Shown here: positions 12,536 to 54,946 of the stretch, piece by piece | How the letters are laid out: each line of letters starts with the position of its first letter | Position numbering within the stretch: position 1 is the stretch's first letter | DNA from: Phycisphaerales bacterium | Lineage (GTDB): Bacteria; Planctomycetota; Phycisphaerae; Phycisphaerales; UBA1924 | NCBI GenBank assembly: GCA_029260345.1 | Contig: JAJDDK010000006.1 | Coordinates: 62,001 to 126,000 of the forward strand | Length of the DNA stretch: 64,000 nucleotides | Reading direction: 5' to 3' | The notes under the pieces: model-generated | What the model was told of the DNA's origin: nothing | Databases searched by the model: none | Seen by the model: the letters and a program-made list of their open reading frames with translations, nothing else | Translations under genes and position numbers: made by a program

Positions 12536-13918
12536 ATGAAGCGCTCATCCCGGCTCCTTATCGTCAGCAACCGGATTCCGGTTCGTCGCATGCGCCGGTC
12601 AGGCAGCACATCGTGGGAGCAGAGTTCGGGCGGCTTGGTGACGGCGCTCGCCCCCATTCTGCAACAGCGACAGGGCACGTGGATCGGGTGGGCGGGGAAC
12701 ACCGGCCGCGCGCCGGAGCCGTTCTCGCTTGACGGAATTCGTTACCAGCCGGTGTCGATGACCAAGGGCGAGCTCGACGATTACTACTTTGGTTTTTCGA
12801 ATCGCACACTGTGGCCGCTGTATCACGACTCCGTTCGAGCGCCGGAATTTCGGCGTCGATGGTGGTGGCCATACGTGGACGTGAACAAGCGATTTGCCGA
12901 AGCGGTCGCGGCTGCGGCGCGCCCCGGCGACACGGTCTGGATTCACGATTACCACTTGCAACTGACGCCTTCGATGTTGCGAGAGTTGCGCCCTGATCTG
13001 CGCATCGGTTTCTTCTTGCATATTCCATTTCCGCCGGAGGAACTGTTTGCGCACATGCCGTGGCGCACACAGATCCTGGAGGGGATGCTCGGCGCGGATT
13101 TGCTTGGATTTCAAACCGCGGCCGGTGCCCGGCATTTCGCGGCTGCGGCAAAGCGCTTCACGGAGGCGCACGGACCGGCAGGCGACATGCGATTCCGCGG
13201 GCGGCACGTGCGAGCCGCGGCGTTTCCGATTTCCATTGACGTTGATCGTTTTGAAATGCTCGCGCAGGATCCGGATGTCATGGCCCGACGCGACCGGCTG
13301 CGAGCGCGATTGGGCGGCAACCGAACAATTTTGCTCGGAGTGGATCGGCTGGACTACAGCAAAGGAATTGACATTCGGTTGCGCGCGTTTGAAGAACTCC
13401 TCAAGAGCGGCGCCGCCAAGCCTTCAGAATGCGTGTTTGTCCAGATTGCGGTGCCGAGCCGCGAAGAAGTGGAGGACTACGCACAGATCCGCACGGATGT
13501 GGAGCAGATCGTGGGGCGCATCAATGGGGAATTCGGCGAAGCCGGACAAGCGACTGTGCATTATCTTCACCGCAACATCCCCCAGCCTGAACTCGTGTCG
13601 CATTACCTTGCGGCCAACGTGATGGTGGTCACGCCGTTTCGTGACGGGATGAATTTGGTGGCGAAGGAGTTTGTCGCCTCGCGTGTGGATGACGATGGGG
13701 TGCTGGTGCTGAGTGAGTTCGCCGGCGCCGCCAATGAATTGAGAGCGGCGCTTCAGGTGAATCCGCACGATCTTGACGGTGTGACGGCAAGCTACGAGGC
13801 AGCGCTGAGTCTTTCGCGCGCCGATCGTCGCAAGCGAATGCGTTCCTTGCGCCGCGCGGTGAAGCGACATGATGTTTTTGACTGGGCGGATCACTTTCTG
13901 GAGGCGCTGACGTCGTGA
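12536..13918 (+). CDS. otsA: Alpha,alpha-trehalose-phosphate synthase
   Basis: Glycosyltransferase family 20 enzyme making trehalose-6-phosphate from a nucleotide-glucose and glucose-6-phosphate. Visible family motifs are [10 protein letters not shown] at the N-terminus, the SSGGLVTAL loop, [38 protein letters not shown] and [16 protein letters not shown]. Length 460 aa is normal. Its stop overlaps the GTG start of the next gene (GTGA), so T6P synthase and phosphatase are translationally coupled. It diverges from the thioredoxin-domain gene across about 200 bp. Confidence 0.96.
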
Positions 13919-16458
13919 CGATTTCGGAATCGCTGGTTTCATCGCTCGAAACACTTGCGACGGCGCCGGTGCTGCTGATCGGCTGTGATTACGACGGCAC
14001 TTTGGCGCCGATCGTGTCCGATCCGGCCGCGGCGGTTCCAGATCGTGAAGCGATGGTGGCGCTGCGCGCGCTGGCGAGTTTGCCGCAAACAAATATCGCG
14101 ATTATTTCCGGTCGAGCCTTGAAGGAACTCTCATCGCTTTCAGAAGCGCCGGACGAAATTCATCTGATCGGCAGTCACGGGAGTGAGTTTGACGCCGGGT
14201 TTGTGCAATCGCTCGATCCGGCCCAGTCGGCGCTGCGCGATCGCGTGTTGTCGGAATTGGAGATCATCGCGGGTGAAGGCGATGGATTTCACATTGAGCA
14301 CAAGCCTGCGAGCGTCGCGTTTCACTTTCGCAATGCGGATGAACGAGCAGCGCATACGGCGCTGGATGCGATCCGACGCGGCCCCGCTTCGCTGGACGGT
14401 GTGCATGTCAAAGACGGCAAGATGGTCGTCGAACTGTGCGTCTTCGAAACGAACAAAGGAATTGCGCTGGAAACCATGCGCCGCCGTGCCGGCGCTTCGG
14501 CCGTCCTGTTTCTCGGTGATGATGTCACTGACGAAGATGCGTTTCGCACATTGACCGGACCCGATGTTGGTGTGAAAGTTGGAGAAGGCGAATCGGTGGC
14601 GCCGCACCGGATTCAAGATCCGCATGAAGTGTCACGGGTGCTGGCGCGGCTCGCGGAATTGCGTGAAGCATGGCTTGCCGGCTCTAAAGCGACGCGGATC
14701 GAAGAGCATTCGATGTTGTCCGACTTTCGGACGATTGCGCTCGTAACGCCGTCGGCGCGCATCGCGTGGTTGTGCCTGCCGCGGATCGATTCGCCGGCGC
14801 TCTTTGCGGAGCTGCTTGGCGGCCCCAGCGCCGGCCATTTTTCCATTCTTGACGCAAATGGCGCCGAGCCGATCGGGCAACAGTACGACAATGACTCGCT
14901 CATCCTTGAAACGAAGTGGCCGACGTTTCGCGCGACGGAATATCTGGATTGTTCAGGCGGGCGAGCGCGCCAGCGGGCCGGCCGGTCTGATCTGGTGCGC
15001 GTGATTGAAGGCACAGGGCGCGTTCGCATTGAGTTTGCGCCGCGGCTGGATTTTGGCCGTGCGCATACGCGGCTTGCCATTCGCGAAGATGGGCTCGAGA
15101 TTGAAGACACGCACGATCCGATCGTGCTCCGCGCGCCTGGCGTGCAATGGGAGCTTGTCGAAGAGGGTGTGCATCAGACCGCCGTCGCTGAAGTTGAGCT
15201 TGAGCCTGATATGCCGCTGATTCTGGAGTTGCGATTCGGCGCCGGAAGTCTGCGGCCGAGCGTGCTGCCGGAATCGGTGCGCCGTCGTCAGACCCACGAT
15301 CTGCTCGCCGATTGGGCGAACCGGTTGATGCTTCCGTCCGTGTGCCCGGACCTGGTGCGGCGCAGCGCGCTCACGATCAAGGGATTGACGTACGGACCGA
15401 CCGGAGCAATTTCGGCGGCCGCGACGACGAGTCTTCCTGAACATGTCGGCGGCGTGCGCAACTGGGACTATCGCTACTGCTGGTTGCGCGACGCGGCGAT
15501 GGGGGCGACGTCGCTCGTGTCACTCGGCAGCGCCAGTGAAGCGCTTCATCTGCTTGACTGGATTCTTGCGGTGCTTGAGGAAACGCCTTCGCCGGAGCGA
15601 TTGCATCCGCTCTATACGGTGACGGGGCATCACCTCGCGCCAGAGGGTGAGATTAGTCAGCTCTCGGGTTATCGCGGCAGCCGTCCGGTGCGTGTCGGCA
15701 ATGCGGCGGCAGGCCAGGTGCAACTGGACGTCTTCGGACCGATCGTCGAACTCGTTCACAAGCTGGTCGAAGTGGGGGCGCCGCTCTCGAGTGAACACTG
15801 GCGACTCGTCGAAGCGATGGTGACGGCGGTGCACAATCGCTGGAGCGAACCGGATCACGGCATTTGGGAGATTCGCAAGCCGCGCCGGCATCATGTGCAT
15901 TCAAAGGTGATGTGCTGGGCGACCATCGATCGCGCGATTGACATCGCCAGCGCTTTTCTTGATCGCGATCGCGAAGACTGGCGCGCATTGCGAGACGAGA
16001 TCGCCGCCGATGTTCTCGAACATGGATTCAAGGAATCGGTTGGCGCGTTTACCGCCGCGTACGAAGGCGAGGATCTCGACGCGGCGGTCCTTGAGATTGG
16101 CCTGCGCGGGCTCTTGCCGCCCGGCGATGAGCGCTTTGTCAGGACCGTTGAGGCGATTGAACGCGAGTTGAGACATGGCCCGGCGGTGTACCGCTATCGC
16201 GCCGACGACGGCCTGCCGGGATTCGAAGGCGGCTTCAATCTCTGCACGGCGTGGTTGATTCAGTCGTACATCCTCGTGGGCCGCGTGGGGGATGCGAACA
16301 CGCTCTTCAATGCGTATTGCGAACTGGCGGGCAAGACCGGTCTTCTTTCGGAGGAGTTTGGACCGGTCAGCAAGCGGGCGCTTGGCAATCATCCGCAGGT
16401 GTATTCGCATCTTGGGTTGATTGATTGTGCGATTGCATTGCAGCGCGCACAAGGCTAA
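13915..16458 (+). CDS. otsB: Fused trehalose-6-phosphate phosphatase and GH15 glucosidase/trehalase
   Basis: 847 aa with two enzymes. Residues 1-255 are a HAD-type OtsB: nucleophile motif DYDGTLAPI, IISGR, SHGSEF, and GDDVTDEDAF. Residues of about 266-847 are a GH15 domain: WLCLPRIDSPALFAELLGG, RNWDYRYCWLRDA, GYRGSRPVRVGNAA, EGGFNLCTAWL and LLSEEFGP...LGNHPQVYSHLGLI, the last carrying the expected catalytic glutamate. GH15 members of this subtype are often trehalases in actinobacteria. Start GTG at 13915 overlaps otsA by 4 nt, with GGAGG 10 nt upstream. The fusion would make and possibly degrade trehalose in one polypeptide. Actual substrate of the GH15 half is unproven. Confidence 0.92.
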   Translation: MTISESLVSSLETLATAPVLLIGCDYDGTLAPIVSDPAAAVPDREAMVALRALASLPQTNIAIISGRALKELSSLSEAPDEIHLIGSHGSEFDAGFVQSLDPAQSALRDRVLSELEIIAGEGDGFHIEHKPASVAFHFRNADERAAHTALDAIRRGPASLDGVHVKDGKMVVELCVFETNKGIALETMRRRAGASAVLFLGDDVTDEDAFRTLTGPDVGVKVGEGESVAPHRIQDPHEVSRVLARLAELREAWLAGSKATRIEEHSMLSDFRTIALVTPSARIAWLCLPRIDSPALFAELLGGPSAGHFSILDANGAEPIGQQYDNDSLILETKWPTFRATEYLDCSGGRARQRAGRSDLVRVIEGTGRVRIEFAPRLDFGRAHTRLAIREDGLEIEDTHDPIVLRAPGVQWELVEEGVHQTAVAEVELEPDMPLILELRFGAGSLRPSVLPESVRRRQTHDLLADWANRLMLPSVCPDLVRRSALTIKGLTYGPTGAISAAATTSLPEHVGGVRNWDYRYCWLRDAAMGATSLVSLGSASEALHLLDWILAVLEETPSPERLHPLYTVTGHHLAPEGEISQLSGYRGSRPVRVGNAAAGQVQLDVFGPIVELVHKLVEVGAPLSSEHWRLVEAMVTAVHNRWSEPDHGIWEIRKPRRHHVHSKVMCWATIDRAIDIASAFLDRDREDWRALRDEIAADVLEHGFKESVGAFTAAYEGEDLDAAVLEIGLRGLLPPGDERFVRTVEAIERELRHGPAVYRYRADDGLPGFEGGFNLCTAWLIQSYILVGRVGDANTLFNAYCELAGKTGLLSEEFGPVSKRALGNHPQVYSHLGLIDCAIALQRAQG

Positions 16459-52180: not shown

Positions 52181-53392
52181 TCAGTCCGCGTAATTGAGCG
52201 GTAGACAGACGAACCCATCCGGGCCGGGCTTGGCGAGCACATGCACACGCAGTTTGGTGTTGAGCAAGTGGCGCGCTTCGGCAGGAGAATCGGTGAACAG
52301 GTGAAGCGCTGCGTCTGCATCTGGCGCGCGCAAGGCCGGCTCCGCCTTCGCAAGAAGCTTTGCGTGATCCTTCGCCCATGACTCGACGGCGAGCAACGCG
52401 CCGATTTGATCGACGCCCCCGTCAGTCAGAGCATGAAGTTCACCGGTGAGGCCGGCGGCGAGTTCCACGCTCTCGTGATACGGACAGCGTGATTCGATCG
52501 CGATGACGCTTGGCAGGCGGCCGGCCAGATTCGACGGCTGGGCGAGAATGGCCGGCGCCTCAGAAATGACAGTCTCAGGATTCGAAACTGGCTGCGGCGT
52601 TGGCGCCGGAGCCGCGACGACCGTCTCGGGGCTCTGTTTGCTCGGCGTCTGAAGCCGATCGACCAGCGCGCTTGCTGATTCATTGAAAGGCGCGCGATAG
52701 ATCGTCGTTCGCGCCACCGGGCCGATGCGATGCACACTCGGCGCTTGCGTCAGCGCGCCATCCATAAATGTGCTGACGGCGCGGCGCAATTGTTCAATCG
52801 CCCGATCCGCCACAGAAGCGTCCGCCCCCATGATGGCGGCGCGAATCTGTGTGCTCCGTTCGAGCCTGGCGTCGGCGCCGAGGGATTTCAGGGTTTGGTA
52901 CGCCGCGACGATGGCGGCGTCATCGGCGCCGGTGAGCACGGTGATCGCGTCGGTTCGAATAAAAGGCGTCTCGCCGAAGGCGTCGGTCCGGTCAAGACGC
53001 AACAAGACGCGGCGGGTGATTGACTGGATGGTTCGAACGGCGTCATCAATGGTCGTCGCTCGGGGGGCGGCGTCTGTTTCGCCGATGATTTCGATGCTAA
53101 GTTCACCTTCAGCGGTACGAATCAGCGCGATCGGCTCGTCTTCGACTGCAGCGACGGCGCCTGCATACTGCGCGACCCACGCCGACGCCGCGCCGGGCAG
53201 GTGCCCGAGCGTGACCAATTCAAAGAATTGTCGTGACGTTTGCGGCTTCGGCGGCGCGGGCTGCGACGGCAACGCCGCGGGCGTTTCGCCGAGGAACAAC
53301 TCGGCAATCGCGTCGTATTCGGATTGATCGGAGTTTGCGCGGAACGGATCGCGCAGGGAATTGTGAGGCTCGATGTCGGCGCCGCGAGACAT
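52181..53392 (-). CDS. Hypothetical protein, putative partner of the ParA-CBM48 ATPase
   Basis: 404 aa; start ATG 53392 chosen because GGAGG (on the minus strand, 53401-53405) lies 8 nt upstream. The segment ITVLTGADDAAIVAAYQTLK, followed by DARLERSTQIRAAIMGA, resembles the C-terminal half of MinD/FlhG ATPases, but no Walker A is present. The following linker (about 250-330) is P/A/T-rich, then a conserved-looking C-terminal domain (CPYHESVELAAGLTGELHAL...LLAVESWAKDHAKLLAKAEP). It begins 49 bp after the ParA gene. Function is unknown and the MinD-like reading is tentative. Confidence 0.7.
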   Translation of the reverse strand: MSRGADIEPHNSLRDPFRANSDQSEYDAIAELFLGETPAALPSQPAPPKPQTSRQFFELVTLGHLPGAASAWVAQYAGAVAAVEDEPIALIRTAEGELSIEIIGETDAAPRATTIDDAVRTIQSITRRVLLRLDRTDAFGETPFIRTDAITVLTGADDAAIVAAYQTLKSLGADARLERSTQIRAAIMGADASVADRAIEQLRRAVSTFMDGALTQAPSVHRIGPVARTTIYRAPFNESASALVDRLQTPSKQSPETVVAAPAPTPQPVSNPETVISEAPAILAQPSNLAGRLPSVIAIESRCPYHESVELAAGLTGELHALTDGGVDQIGALLAVESWAKDHAKLLAKAEPALRAPDADAALHLFTDSPAEARHLLNTKLRVHVLAKPGPDGFVCLPLNYAD

Positions 53393-53441: not shown

Positions 53442-54905
53442 TTAGTCAGCGCCTTCGGTCGAGGCGTGCTCCATTTCGGAGCGGGCGACGACCAGCACGC
53501 TGTTGGTTTCACCAAAGGGATTGACCGTGATGGACGGATTTGCGGGATCAGCGATCCAGACGCCGTCGATCACGATGCGGTATTCGCAACGGCCGGGGGG
53601 CAACTCGACCAGGCCTTCGTGAAGGCCGCTGGAGGGGTTGTATCGCAGCGGTGTCGCGCTTGGGGACCAGCGATTGAATTCGCCGGCGACGGCGACGCTG
53701 GAGGTCGGGCCGGCGCGATGGCGGAAGACGACGCCTTCCGGGGAATCGAGCGGACCGAAGGAATGATCGAATGATTCGCTCCGACGATCCGGCGCGCTTG
53801 CTGGCGTTTCCACTCTCTTTGTGGTCGCCGTTGCGGCGGTGCTGGTCGACGAACGGGAAACGTCAGGGTCTGCCGTGAGTTTGGCCTGAAGAAAGGCGCC
53901 GCGTTCAAGCAACTGACGGGCGCGCATGGCGAGTTCCGCGGCGCGGCTGACGATTGGATCGCTTTCAGGCTGGGTCGTTGTGCGTGTTTCAGTTCGCTGT
54001 TCGGGCGCGCTGACTTCGGTGGGGCCATCAAGAATGTCGGAGTAGGGCTTCGGTTCGATGGTTGAAGCGCTGGGACGCAGCGGACGCACCGGTTGGGTGG
54101 GCGGGACAAAGCGGTCTTCATCGAGGATTGGCGCCGCGCGGCCGAGGAGCCACGACGCGAGGTCGGAGTAATCCTGAGCGCCGATCGAATGCGGGGCGTA
54201 TTCCACGACAGGCTGACCCATGGACGCGGCATCCTTGAGTTTGGAGTCGAGCCGAATTGTGGTCGGGATGACGCGATCGCCGAACCGGCGCTTGAGTTCG
54301 GCGAGAAGTTCATTGCCGAGCGAACTGTTCTCGTCGTGCATAGTGACGAGCAGGCGATACGGCGTGACGCCGCCAAGACGCTTGGCGAGGGCGCGGATGG
54401 TGTTGATCTGACGGCCGGCGCCCTGCAGCGAAAAGAAGCCGGTTTCGACGGGGATGATGACTTCGTCGGCGGCGCGGAGGGCGTTGAAAGTGAGCAGGCC
54501 GATTGACGGCGGGCAGTCGATCAGGCACACGTCGTAGCGATCACGCCAGGCGTCGAAGGCGCGGGAGAGTCGTTCGTCGCGATCTTCGGCGTCGGCGATG
54601 CCGCCGCGCATGGCTTCGAGCCCGGCCAGCCGCACTGAGCTTGGCGCGAGATCAAGATTCTTTCTGATTCGCCAGAGCAGGCGTGTTTCGTCCACGGGTT
54701 GCGTCGGCGTGGCGAGCATCGCGTCGCCGATGTGGAGGTCGATGCGATCCTCTGGGATGGCAAGACCGGCGGCGCAGTGGGACTGCGGGTCCATATCGAC
54801 GAGGAGTGTTCGTTCGCCGAAGCGAGCCAGAACGCCCGCGAGGTTGATGGCGGACGTTGTTTTGCCGCATCCGCCCTTTTGGTTCACGATCGCAATGGTC
54901 CGCAC
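53442..54905 (-). CDS. ParA/Soj-type ATPase fused to C-terminal CBM48/AMPK glycogen-binding-like domain
   Basis: 487 aa. The GTG start at 54905 is fixed by AAGGAGG at 54912-54918 (6-nt spacing). Residues 1-260: deviant Walker A NQKGGCGKTTSAINLAG, TLLVDMDPQSHCAAGL, and VCLIDCPPSIGLLTFNAL, all expected of chromosome- or cargo-partitioning ATPases. Residues of about 265-380 are a polar linker with an AELAMRARQLLERGAFLQA helix. Residues of about 390-475 form an E-set/CBM48-like domain (VAVAGEFNRWSP, GLVELPPGRCEYRIVIDGVW, NPSITVNPFG). ATPase partners usually position DNA, plasmids or protein clusters; a polysaccharide-binding-like tail suggests polar, storage-granule or carbohydrate-linked cargo, which is inference. 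Confidence 0.9.
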   Translation of the reverse strand: MRTIAIVNQKGGCGKTTSAINLAGVLARFGERTLLVDMDPQSHCAAGLAIPEDRIDLHIGDAMLATPTQPVDETRLLWRIRKNLDLAPSSVRLAGLEAMRGGIADAEDRDERLSRAFDAWRDRYDVCLIDCPPSIGLLTFNALRAADEVIIPVETGFFSLQGAGRQINTIRALAKRLGGVTPYRLLVTMHDENSSLGNELLAELKRRFGDRVIPTTIRLDSKLKDAASMGQPVVEYAPHSIGAQDYSDLASWLLGRAAPILDEDRFVPPTQPVRPLRPSASTIEPKPYSDILDGPTEVSAPEQRTETRTTTQPESDPIVSRAAELAMRARQLLERGAFLQAKLTADPDVSRSSTSTAATATTKRVETPASAPDRRSESFDHSFGPLDSPEGVVFRHRAGPTSSVAVAGEFNRWSPSATPLRYNPSSGLHEGLVELPPGRCEYRIVIDGVWIADPANPSITVNPFGETNSVLVVARSEMEHASTEGAD

Positions 54906-54946
54906 GTGACGCCTCCTTAGCGCGAGAAATCGGGATCGGACCGACA

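Follow-up and report, generated by a model that had tools for sequence, protein, structure and literature searches.

A ParA-type ATPase joined to an AMPK-type carbohydrate-binding domain in Phycisphaerae, often encoded beside a degenerate FlhG relative

Introduction

In ParA/MinD systems an ATPase cycles on the nucleoid or the membrane, and the cycle is driven by a cargo-marking partner. The sections of a review drawn on here (PMC10241942) list chromosomes, carboxysomes, chemotaxis arrays and flagella among the structures that these ATPases organise, describe many of them as having no known partner, and portray partners as extremely diverse and tending to act via a positively charged, disordered N-terminus. 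For the beta1 subunit of AMPK, residues W100, K126, W133, L146 and T148 are the suggested sugar contacts, whose mutation lowered glycogen binding; glycogen inhibits AMPK via this CBM, and AMPK shows that domains of this kind can sense as well as tether (PMC2642990, in the part used here).

This study concerns a gene that joins a ParA-type ATPase to a domain of the AMPK type. It lies in a window (the whole stretch of DNA analysed) of 64,000 nucleotides from a Phycisphaerales bacterium. Soj/ParA of the ParABS systems shares with its ATPase half the fold (the nearest solved structures are 9a6n_A, Z 35.8, rmsd 1.8 Å over 249 residues, and 6iub_A, Z 35.1), the deviant Walker A and other motifs, and 36–40% identity in the best structural alignments, but the fusion adds a C-terminal linker and CBM, and Pfam found no ParB domain in the gene directly after it. 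McdA-McdB and other ParA/MinD cargo systems likewise have an ATPase with a fast-diverging partner next door (McdA 6non_B matches at Z 29.6), and the general cargo-positioning scheme outlined in the same review sections (PMC10241942) is shared. Unlike in McdA-McdB, the partner is a putative FlhG-type pseudo-ATPase that is missing in part of the family, and the ATPase bears a carbohydrate-binding domain. Equivalents of W100, K126 (as R) and W133 of the AMPK beta glycogen-binding domain (CBM48/PF16561; E 6.3e-9) are kept, whereas T148 is not, L146 is F, and the CBM is joined to ParA and does not reside in a kinase beta subunit. FlhG/FleN, finally, is the top fold and profile match of the partner, which differs from it by having no Walker A (52 of 52 aligned sequences), an extra C-terminal domain, an N-terminal DALADLFL-type motif, and a location outside the flagellar cluster.

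Searches of the literature on ParA with glycogen, Planctomycetes, CBM48 or glycogen granules returned no title or abstract opening describing such a protein. As far as these searches reach, the architecture, its conservation across the class and the pseudo-FlhG partner are undescribed, while the component parts are known.

The fusion gene and its ATPase half

The gene, its presumed ribosome-binding signal and the parts upstream of the CBM are as follows.

53442..54905, minus strand: ParA-CBM48 fusion gene, 487 aa, GTG start at 54905 (translation, Pfam, homologous loci)
54912..54918, minus strand: Shine-Dalgarno-like AAGGAGG ahead of the ParA GTG
54138..54905, minus strand: ParA/Soj-type ATPase domain, residues 1-256 (Pfam, conserved motifs, structural comparison)
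53847..53957, minus strand: linker helix, residues 317-353 (AlphaFold2 model, alignment)

An earlier, sequence-only reading of this DNA had proposed a ParA domain joined by a linker to an E-set domain, and this is borne out: the reading frame lies where it was placed, and Pfam, AlphaFold2 and a shuffle control agree. AAA_31 matches residues 2-176 of the protein (Pfam, E 2.4e-42), and the AlphaFold2 model, built with 58 sequences, is confident for the ATPase part at residues 1-256. Within that half all the motifs are present, namely the deviant Walker A KGGxGKT with its signature lysine and the aspartates of Walker A' and Walker B, and the catalytic residues K10, K15, D37, D39 and D130 are invariant in 81 of 81 aligned sequences. 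The linker helix was modelled at pLDDT 76–83 for residues 321-350, its flanks (276-316 and 353-378) falling under pLDDT 50. Because the same genome has a separate ParA of 304 aa (contig C6, position 252492) and a ParB with both HTH and dimerisation domains (contig C5), the fusion ParA is an additional ParA and not the obvious chromosome partitioner.

The carbohydrate-binding domain

The domain and four codons for sugar-contact equivalents, with their conservation in the aligned sequences, are located at:

53481..53756, minus strand: AMPK-type CBM48/E-set domain, residues 384-475 (Pfam, PDB match, AlphaFold2, shuffle control)
53667..53669, minus strand: codon of W413 (equivalent to AMPK beta1 W100, a sugar contact), W in 81 of 81
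53577..53579, minus strand: codon of R443 (AMPK beta1 K126), R or K in 75 of 81
53556..53558, minus strand: codon of W450 (AMPK beta1 W133), W in 69 of 81
53502..53504, minus strand: codon of N468 (AMPK beta1 N150), N in 63 of 81

Pfam matched residues 400-477 to AMPK1_CBM (PF16561) with 39.9 bits against a cut-off of 26.8, the score for CBM_48 (PF02922) being 19.2, under its cut-off of 22.4, and AMPK beta CBMs are the top PDB sequence matches of the C-terminal part. Against a profile made without the window sequence the domain scored 116.7 bits, the highest of 2000 shuffles reaching 7.0. Residues 384-475 were modelled by AlphaFold2 as mostly beta, with ten-residue blocks at pLDDT 91–98 for 381-470 and 83 for 471-480. 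On the confident beta model and the match to solved AMPK CBMs, the C-terminal domain is predicted to be an E-set beta-sandwich. The domain had originally been placed at residues 390-475; its nature stands, and its boundaries move to about 384-475 in the model. The sequence-only reading had named two findings that would count against it, a predicted structure other than an E-set fold and the loss of all carbohydrate-contact aromatics in a mere dimerisation module. Neither was seen, because a real ParA is joined to an AMPK-type CBM, confidently modelled as mostly beta and matching AMPK CBMs in sequence, in which the sugar-contact tryptophans W413 and W450 are kept.

The equivalents of the AMPK residues in the window are W413, R443, W450, F464 (L146), E466 (T148) and N468, the last corresponding to N150, which we take to be a sugar contact as well. 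At position 466, where AMPK has T148, E is the commonest residue (43 of 81), while the fold-core residues N411, W413, Y442, G448, D453 and N456 are kept in all 81. Among the 87 domains of the class survey described below, W413, R/K443, W450 and N468 are all retained in 79, and both tryptophans in 85. Two clades, each with six members and full support, have lost W450; S takes its place (with Q443) in one and E in the other, and the CBM fold can therefore outlive the full contact set. Genome G293 still has the partner and the ParA (53% identity across 249 residues) and no detectable CBM; the ParA-partner pair can therefore do without this domain.

Distribution of the fusion

Among bacterial and archaeal genomes 201 relatives were detected, of which the best 80 were kept; all 80 are fused in one frame, although weaker, CBM-less relatives may be missing from this set because only the best 80 of 201 were retained. 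By record name, 58 of these 80 belong to Phycisphaerae or its groups, and a further 17 are Planctomycetota, Planctomycetaceae or planctomycete. The others are three uncultured bacteria, one Leptolyngbya and one Kuenenia, and the last two are probably mislabelled bins. Pfam, applied to 58 members (the window and 57 of the 80 loci), detected AAA_31 in 58 and AMPK1_CBM in 57.

An even draw of 214 genomes from the phylum gave, on inspection of the loci, the fusion in 16 of 19 genomes of the same class and, outside it, in one (G052) of the 13 best-matching loci inspected. The G052 frame (locus L132, 5110-6336, minus strand) encodes a ParA-CBM fusion of 409 aa whose linker is short, and the 10 kb of sequence covered there gave no match to the partner; it is possibly a transfer or an ancestral form. 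Across 140 genomes of the class, a strong match to the CBM domain occurred in 95, and the fusion was accepted in 87 by score and frame length, the ParA half having been viewed directly in 16 class genomes. Seven of the 95 were dropped for having short or other frames only (G258, G263, G286, G279, G309, G269 and G303), as was G097, whose match is not a ParA fusion in frame, and all counts below are based on the 87. Most of the listed class genomes without a CBM-domain match belong to two families, f75 and f80, the list leaving out 25 such genomes.

A chance chimera or assembly join was ruled out by the in-frame fusion in 80 of 80 kept loci and in 16 of the 19 genomes of this class that the phylum draw contained. 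A mobile or plasmid gene was also rejected: none of the best 5000 plasmid records matches the query over 80% of its length, and the six listed ones match its ParA half.

The neighbouring partner gene

Directly downstream of the fusion lies a second gene, which the sequence-only reading had missed together with the class-wide conservation. Its features are:

52181..53392, minus strand: partner gene, 403 aa, starting 49 bp after the ParA stop
53294..53323, minus strand: N-terminal helix, residues 24-33, family consensus DALADLFLG (model, alignment)
52643..53233, minus strand: degenerate FlhG/FleN (MinD-like) domain, residues 54-250 (fold, profile; no Walker A)
53195..53206, minus strand: GHLP motif, residues 63-66, near the domain start (G[HNS]LP in 51 of 52 aligned partners)
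52193..52528, minus strand: C-terminal alpha/beta domain, residues 289-400 (pLDDT mostly 88 or more)

The window partner has no Pfam, NCBIfam or PHROG match, and a Pfam search of 52 aligned partners gave two families with a single weak match each, both unrelated. Its model comprises an N-terminal helix within a low-confidence tail, followed by two alpha/beta domains, one in the middle and one at the C-terminus. The middle domain resembles FlhG best (4rz2_B, Z 11.7 over 164 residues, and a further FlhG match at 11.5), followed by FleN (Z 10.2 to 9.8) and then another family (8.9). The family profile, compared with the PDB, likewise placed FlhG and FleN first (E 0.0026 to 0.013, the best being FlhG at 0.0026), and it also found the FlhG-like ATPase of the same genome (E 3.7e-10). 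Judged by fold and profile, the partner is a degenerate relative of FlhG/FleN; it cannot be filed as FlhG, because the Walker A motif GxxxxGK[T/S] is absent from all 52 aligned partners, and the GHLP-like motif appears to stand where the P-loop would be. For the C-terminal domain no relative was identified, the structural comparison barely covering that part. ParB and McdB were rejected as identities, the window partner having no Pfam domain.

A homolog of the partner, on the same strand and starting less than 200 bp from the ParA end or overlapping it, accompanies the fusion in 64 of the 80 loci (best 80 of 201). Among the 16 loci without one, L061 stops at a contig edge, and the other 15 fall in a part of the tree with 25 tips that includes partner-bearing loci. 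At E 1e-16 or better, 40 of the 140 class genomes have a partner match, 39 of them with the fusion; the remaining 48 of the 87 fusion genomes have no such match, through absence or divergence. The partner is thus not essential to the fusion, given the 16 of 80 loci without an adjacent copy and the strong match in only 39 of 87 genomes. Ten downstream frames from loci without a clear partner share no Pfam family. Four such loci (L055, L056, L069 and L080) have a conserved frame of about 400–510 aa, some 420–620 bp 3' of the fusion, and no Pfam match was found for those of L055, L069 and L080.

Annotated genes that recur around the fusion (Pfam, one representative each) are aroB (31 loci), ClpX (13), RsfS (12), a metallo-beta-lactamase-fold protein (11) and an LpxA-like acyltransferase (9). 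The ParA-partner pair of the genome studied lies outside its flagellar cluster, which is on contig C2 and where an FlhG-like ATPase with an intact P-loop follows FliR (just under its cut-off), FlhB, FlhA and FlhF. The C2 ATPase is called FlhG from this place and from its N-terminal DQAxxLR-type motif, which we take to be a mark of FlhG, as NCBIfam gave only MinD models below cut-off.

Glucan metabolism genes

The same 140 genomes of the class were searched for markers of glucan metabolism, at E 1e-20 for GT5 and 1e-10 for the others. GT5 was found in 9, GT3 in 68, glucan phosphorylase in 125 and GH57 in 125, while GH13 branching enzymes were over the cut-off in 15, and 65 genomes had a branching-type match of 200 bits or more. 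In this class GT5 GlgA is thus rare while the GT3 (PF05693) glycogen synthase is frequent; among 14 control genomes GT3 occurred only in Bacteroides ihuae.

The sequence-only reading had named glycogen granules among the possible cargoes, to be checked by a phylogenetic profile with glycogen genes. A link to glycogen storage as such was not upheld: the fusion does not follow glycogen synthase, whether GT3 is taken by itself (39/87 with the fusion against 29/53 without, p 0.30) or together with GT5 (46/87 against 31/53, p 0.60), and the strict GH13 branching enzyme is the sole marker significantly commoner with it (14/87 against 1/53, p 0.009). Branching-type matches of at least 200 bits are rarer with the fusion (34/87 against 31/53, p 0.04), as is the combination of a synthase and a branching-type enzyme (20/87 against 26/53, p 0.003). 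Neither phosphorylase (76/87 against 49/53, p 0.41) nor GH57 (81/87 against 44/53, p 0.09) differs significantly. These tests take no account of kinship, and common ancestry within families may lie behind an association in either direction. GT3, GT5 and branching matches of at least 200 bits are together absent from 27 of the 87 fusion genomes, the one studied here included.

At the thresholds used, neither GT3 nor GT5 nor a GH13 branching enzyme was detected in that genome, the search for synthesis genes having covered these three; synthesis of the GT4 or GlgE type and branching by a GH57 enzyme may exist. Matches to GlgX (993 bits), alpha-glucan phosphorylase (838 bits) and a GH57 enzyme (236 bits) are present. 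From this gene content, alpha-glucan turnover is likely and classical glycogen storage is not evident. Glycogen breakdown is commonly predicted for Phycisphaerae in the part of PMC11266412 used here.

Family f4 offers a comparison within closer kin. G316, with its contacts intact, has a glucan phosphorylase match and GT5 GlgA, whereas G206 and G326, which have lost the contacts, and G293, with no detectable CBM, have no phosphorylase match. Counted over the class survey, phosphorylase is found in 76 of 85 against 0 of 3 (p 0.002), the three coming from one family and not being independent. All three have branching-type GH13 matches of 215–248 bits, and G206 also GH57, while no branching-enzyme match was found in G316. 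A similar but weak trend appeared in 36 source genomes, those of every locus lacking W450 (12) and of 24 among the 68 loci that keep it: phosphorylase was found in 18 of the 24 genomes retaining W450 and in 5 of the 12 lacking it (p 0.07); a post hoc 60-bit cut for phosphorylase in these 36 genomes would look stronger and was set aside.

Discussion

The reading that we tentatively favour, with somewhat more doubt than confidence, is a ParA positioning system or regulatory switch, either gated by alpha-glucan or tethered to it, in which the pseudo-FlhG, where present, would serve as an adaptor. The ATPase would cycle on the nucleoid or another surface, like other ParA proteins, and the CBM would bind alpha-1,4-glucan or malto-oligosaccharides. 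When bound to glucan, the CBM could either tether the ATPase or gate its cycle, comparable to the inhibition of AMPK by glycogen, and the pseudo-FlhG, in genomes that have it, might be an adaptor or activator joining the ATPase to cargo. Where glycogen synthesis is not recognised, as in the genome studied here, sensing of dextrins from breakdown would be likelier than transport of storage granules. The retention of contact residues, the intact ATPase motifs and the adjacent partner were counted in favour of such a glucan-responsive switch, and the E at T148, the F at L146, the clades without W450 and the equal frequency of phosphorylase in genomes without the fusion were counted against it. 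Our confidence was lowered slightly because of the branching-type GH13 matches in the f4 genomes with lost contacts and the limited spread of the partner, while the phosphorylase pattern of that family is the one positive hint of a glucan role. The ParA-partner pair fits the ParA/MinD scheme, except that many members have no recognisable partner and that the conserved N-terminal motif of the partner is not positively charged, unlike the partner tails described in the review sections used here (PMC10241942).

A CBM fold that no longer binds sugar, and serves instead as a dimerisation or protein-docking module for ParA or its partner, would suit a fold core that is kept in every aligned sequence while W450 is lost in two clades, and a fusion whose presence does not track glycogen synthase genes. 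We consider it unlikely all the same: four contact residues, widely spaced along the chain, are jointly retained in 79 of 87 domains, and the ParA-partner pair persists in G293 with no CBM detectable. The partitioning of glycogen granules, with the CBM holding storage granules and ParA spreading them over the nucleoid, agrees with the intact contacts, with the GT3 synthase of 68 of the 140 class genomes and with the greater frequency of the strict branching enzyme alongside the fusion. It was demoted, because that enzyme is the only marker with a significant positive association, and we now regard granule partitioning as improbable; synthase is not associated with the fusion, branching-type matches and the pairing of synthase with branching enzyme are rarer with it, and nearly a third of fusion genomes (the 27 of 87 noted above) have none of the three synthesis markers. 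Least probable, and by some distance an outside chance, is a role derived from FlhG in positioning a flagellum or surface structure, with the CBM binding another polysaccharide or a glycan-decorated protein. The FlhG-like partner would agree with it, as would the P-loop-intact FlhG-like ATPase in the genome's own FliR-FlhB-FlhA-FlhF cluster, but the pair is not in that cluster, and its recurring neighbours are aroB, RsfS, ClpX, the metallo-beta-lactamase-fold protein and the LpxA-like protein.

A ParA with an AMPK-like glucan-binding domain across much of a class, in many cases beside a degenerate FlhG relative, presents a defined connection, open to experiment, from carbon polymers to positioning or regulation inside the cell. 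The bolder form of the glucan-responsive switch is that the ATPase itself is a carbohydrate receptor, whose AMPK-like CBM would allow a ParA gradient to be gated by the cell's alpha-glucan state, or would tether glucan particles to the nucleoid, often together with a nucleotide-blind FlhG relative. We hold this form to be doubtful; if it were true, carbon polymers would be coupled to cell organisation throughout a bacterial class.

Two further observations concern the same genome. AMPK1_CBM matches without an in-frame ParA occur on contig C5 at 761815 (frame of 206 aa) and 326080 (200 aa), and the first of these frames carries FNDWS and GQW. Trehalose genes, which the sequence-only reading had correctly placed about 40 kb from the fusion, are represented in the window by OtsA (12536-13915) and an OtsB-GH15 fusion (14053-16455, plus strand). 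The latter follows directly after OtsA and consists of a trehalose-6-phosphate phosphatase domain and a trehalase-like part (TREH_N and GH15), so that one frame unites the phosphatase of synthesis and a hydrolase-like module.
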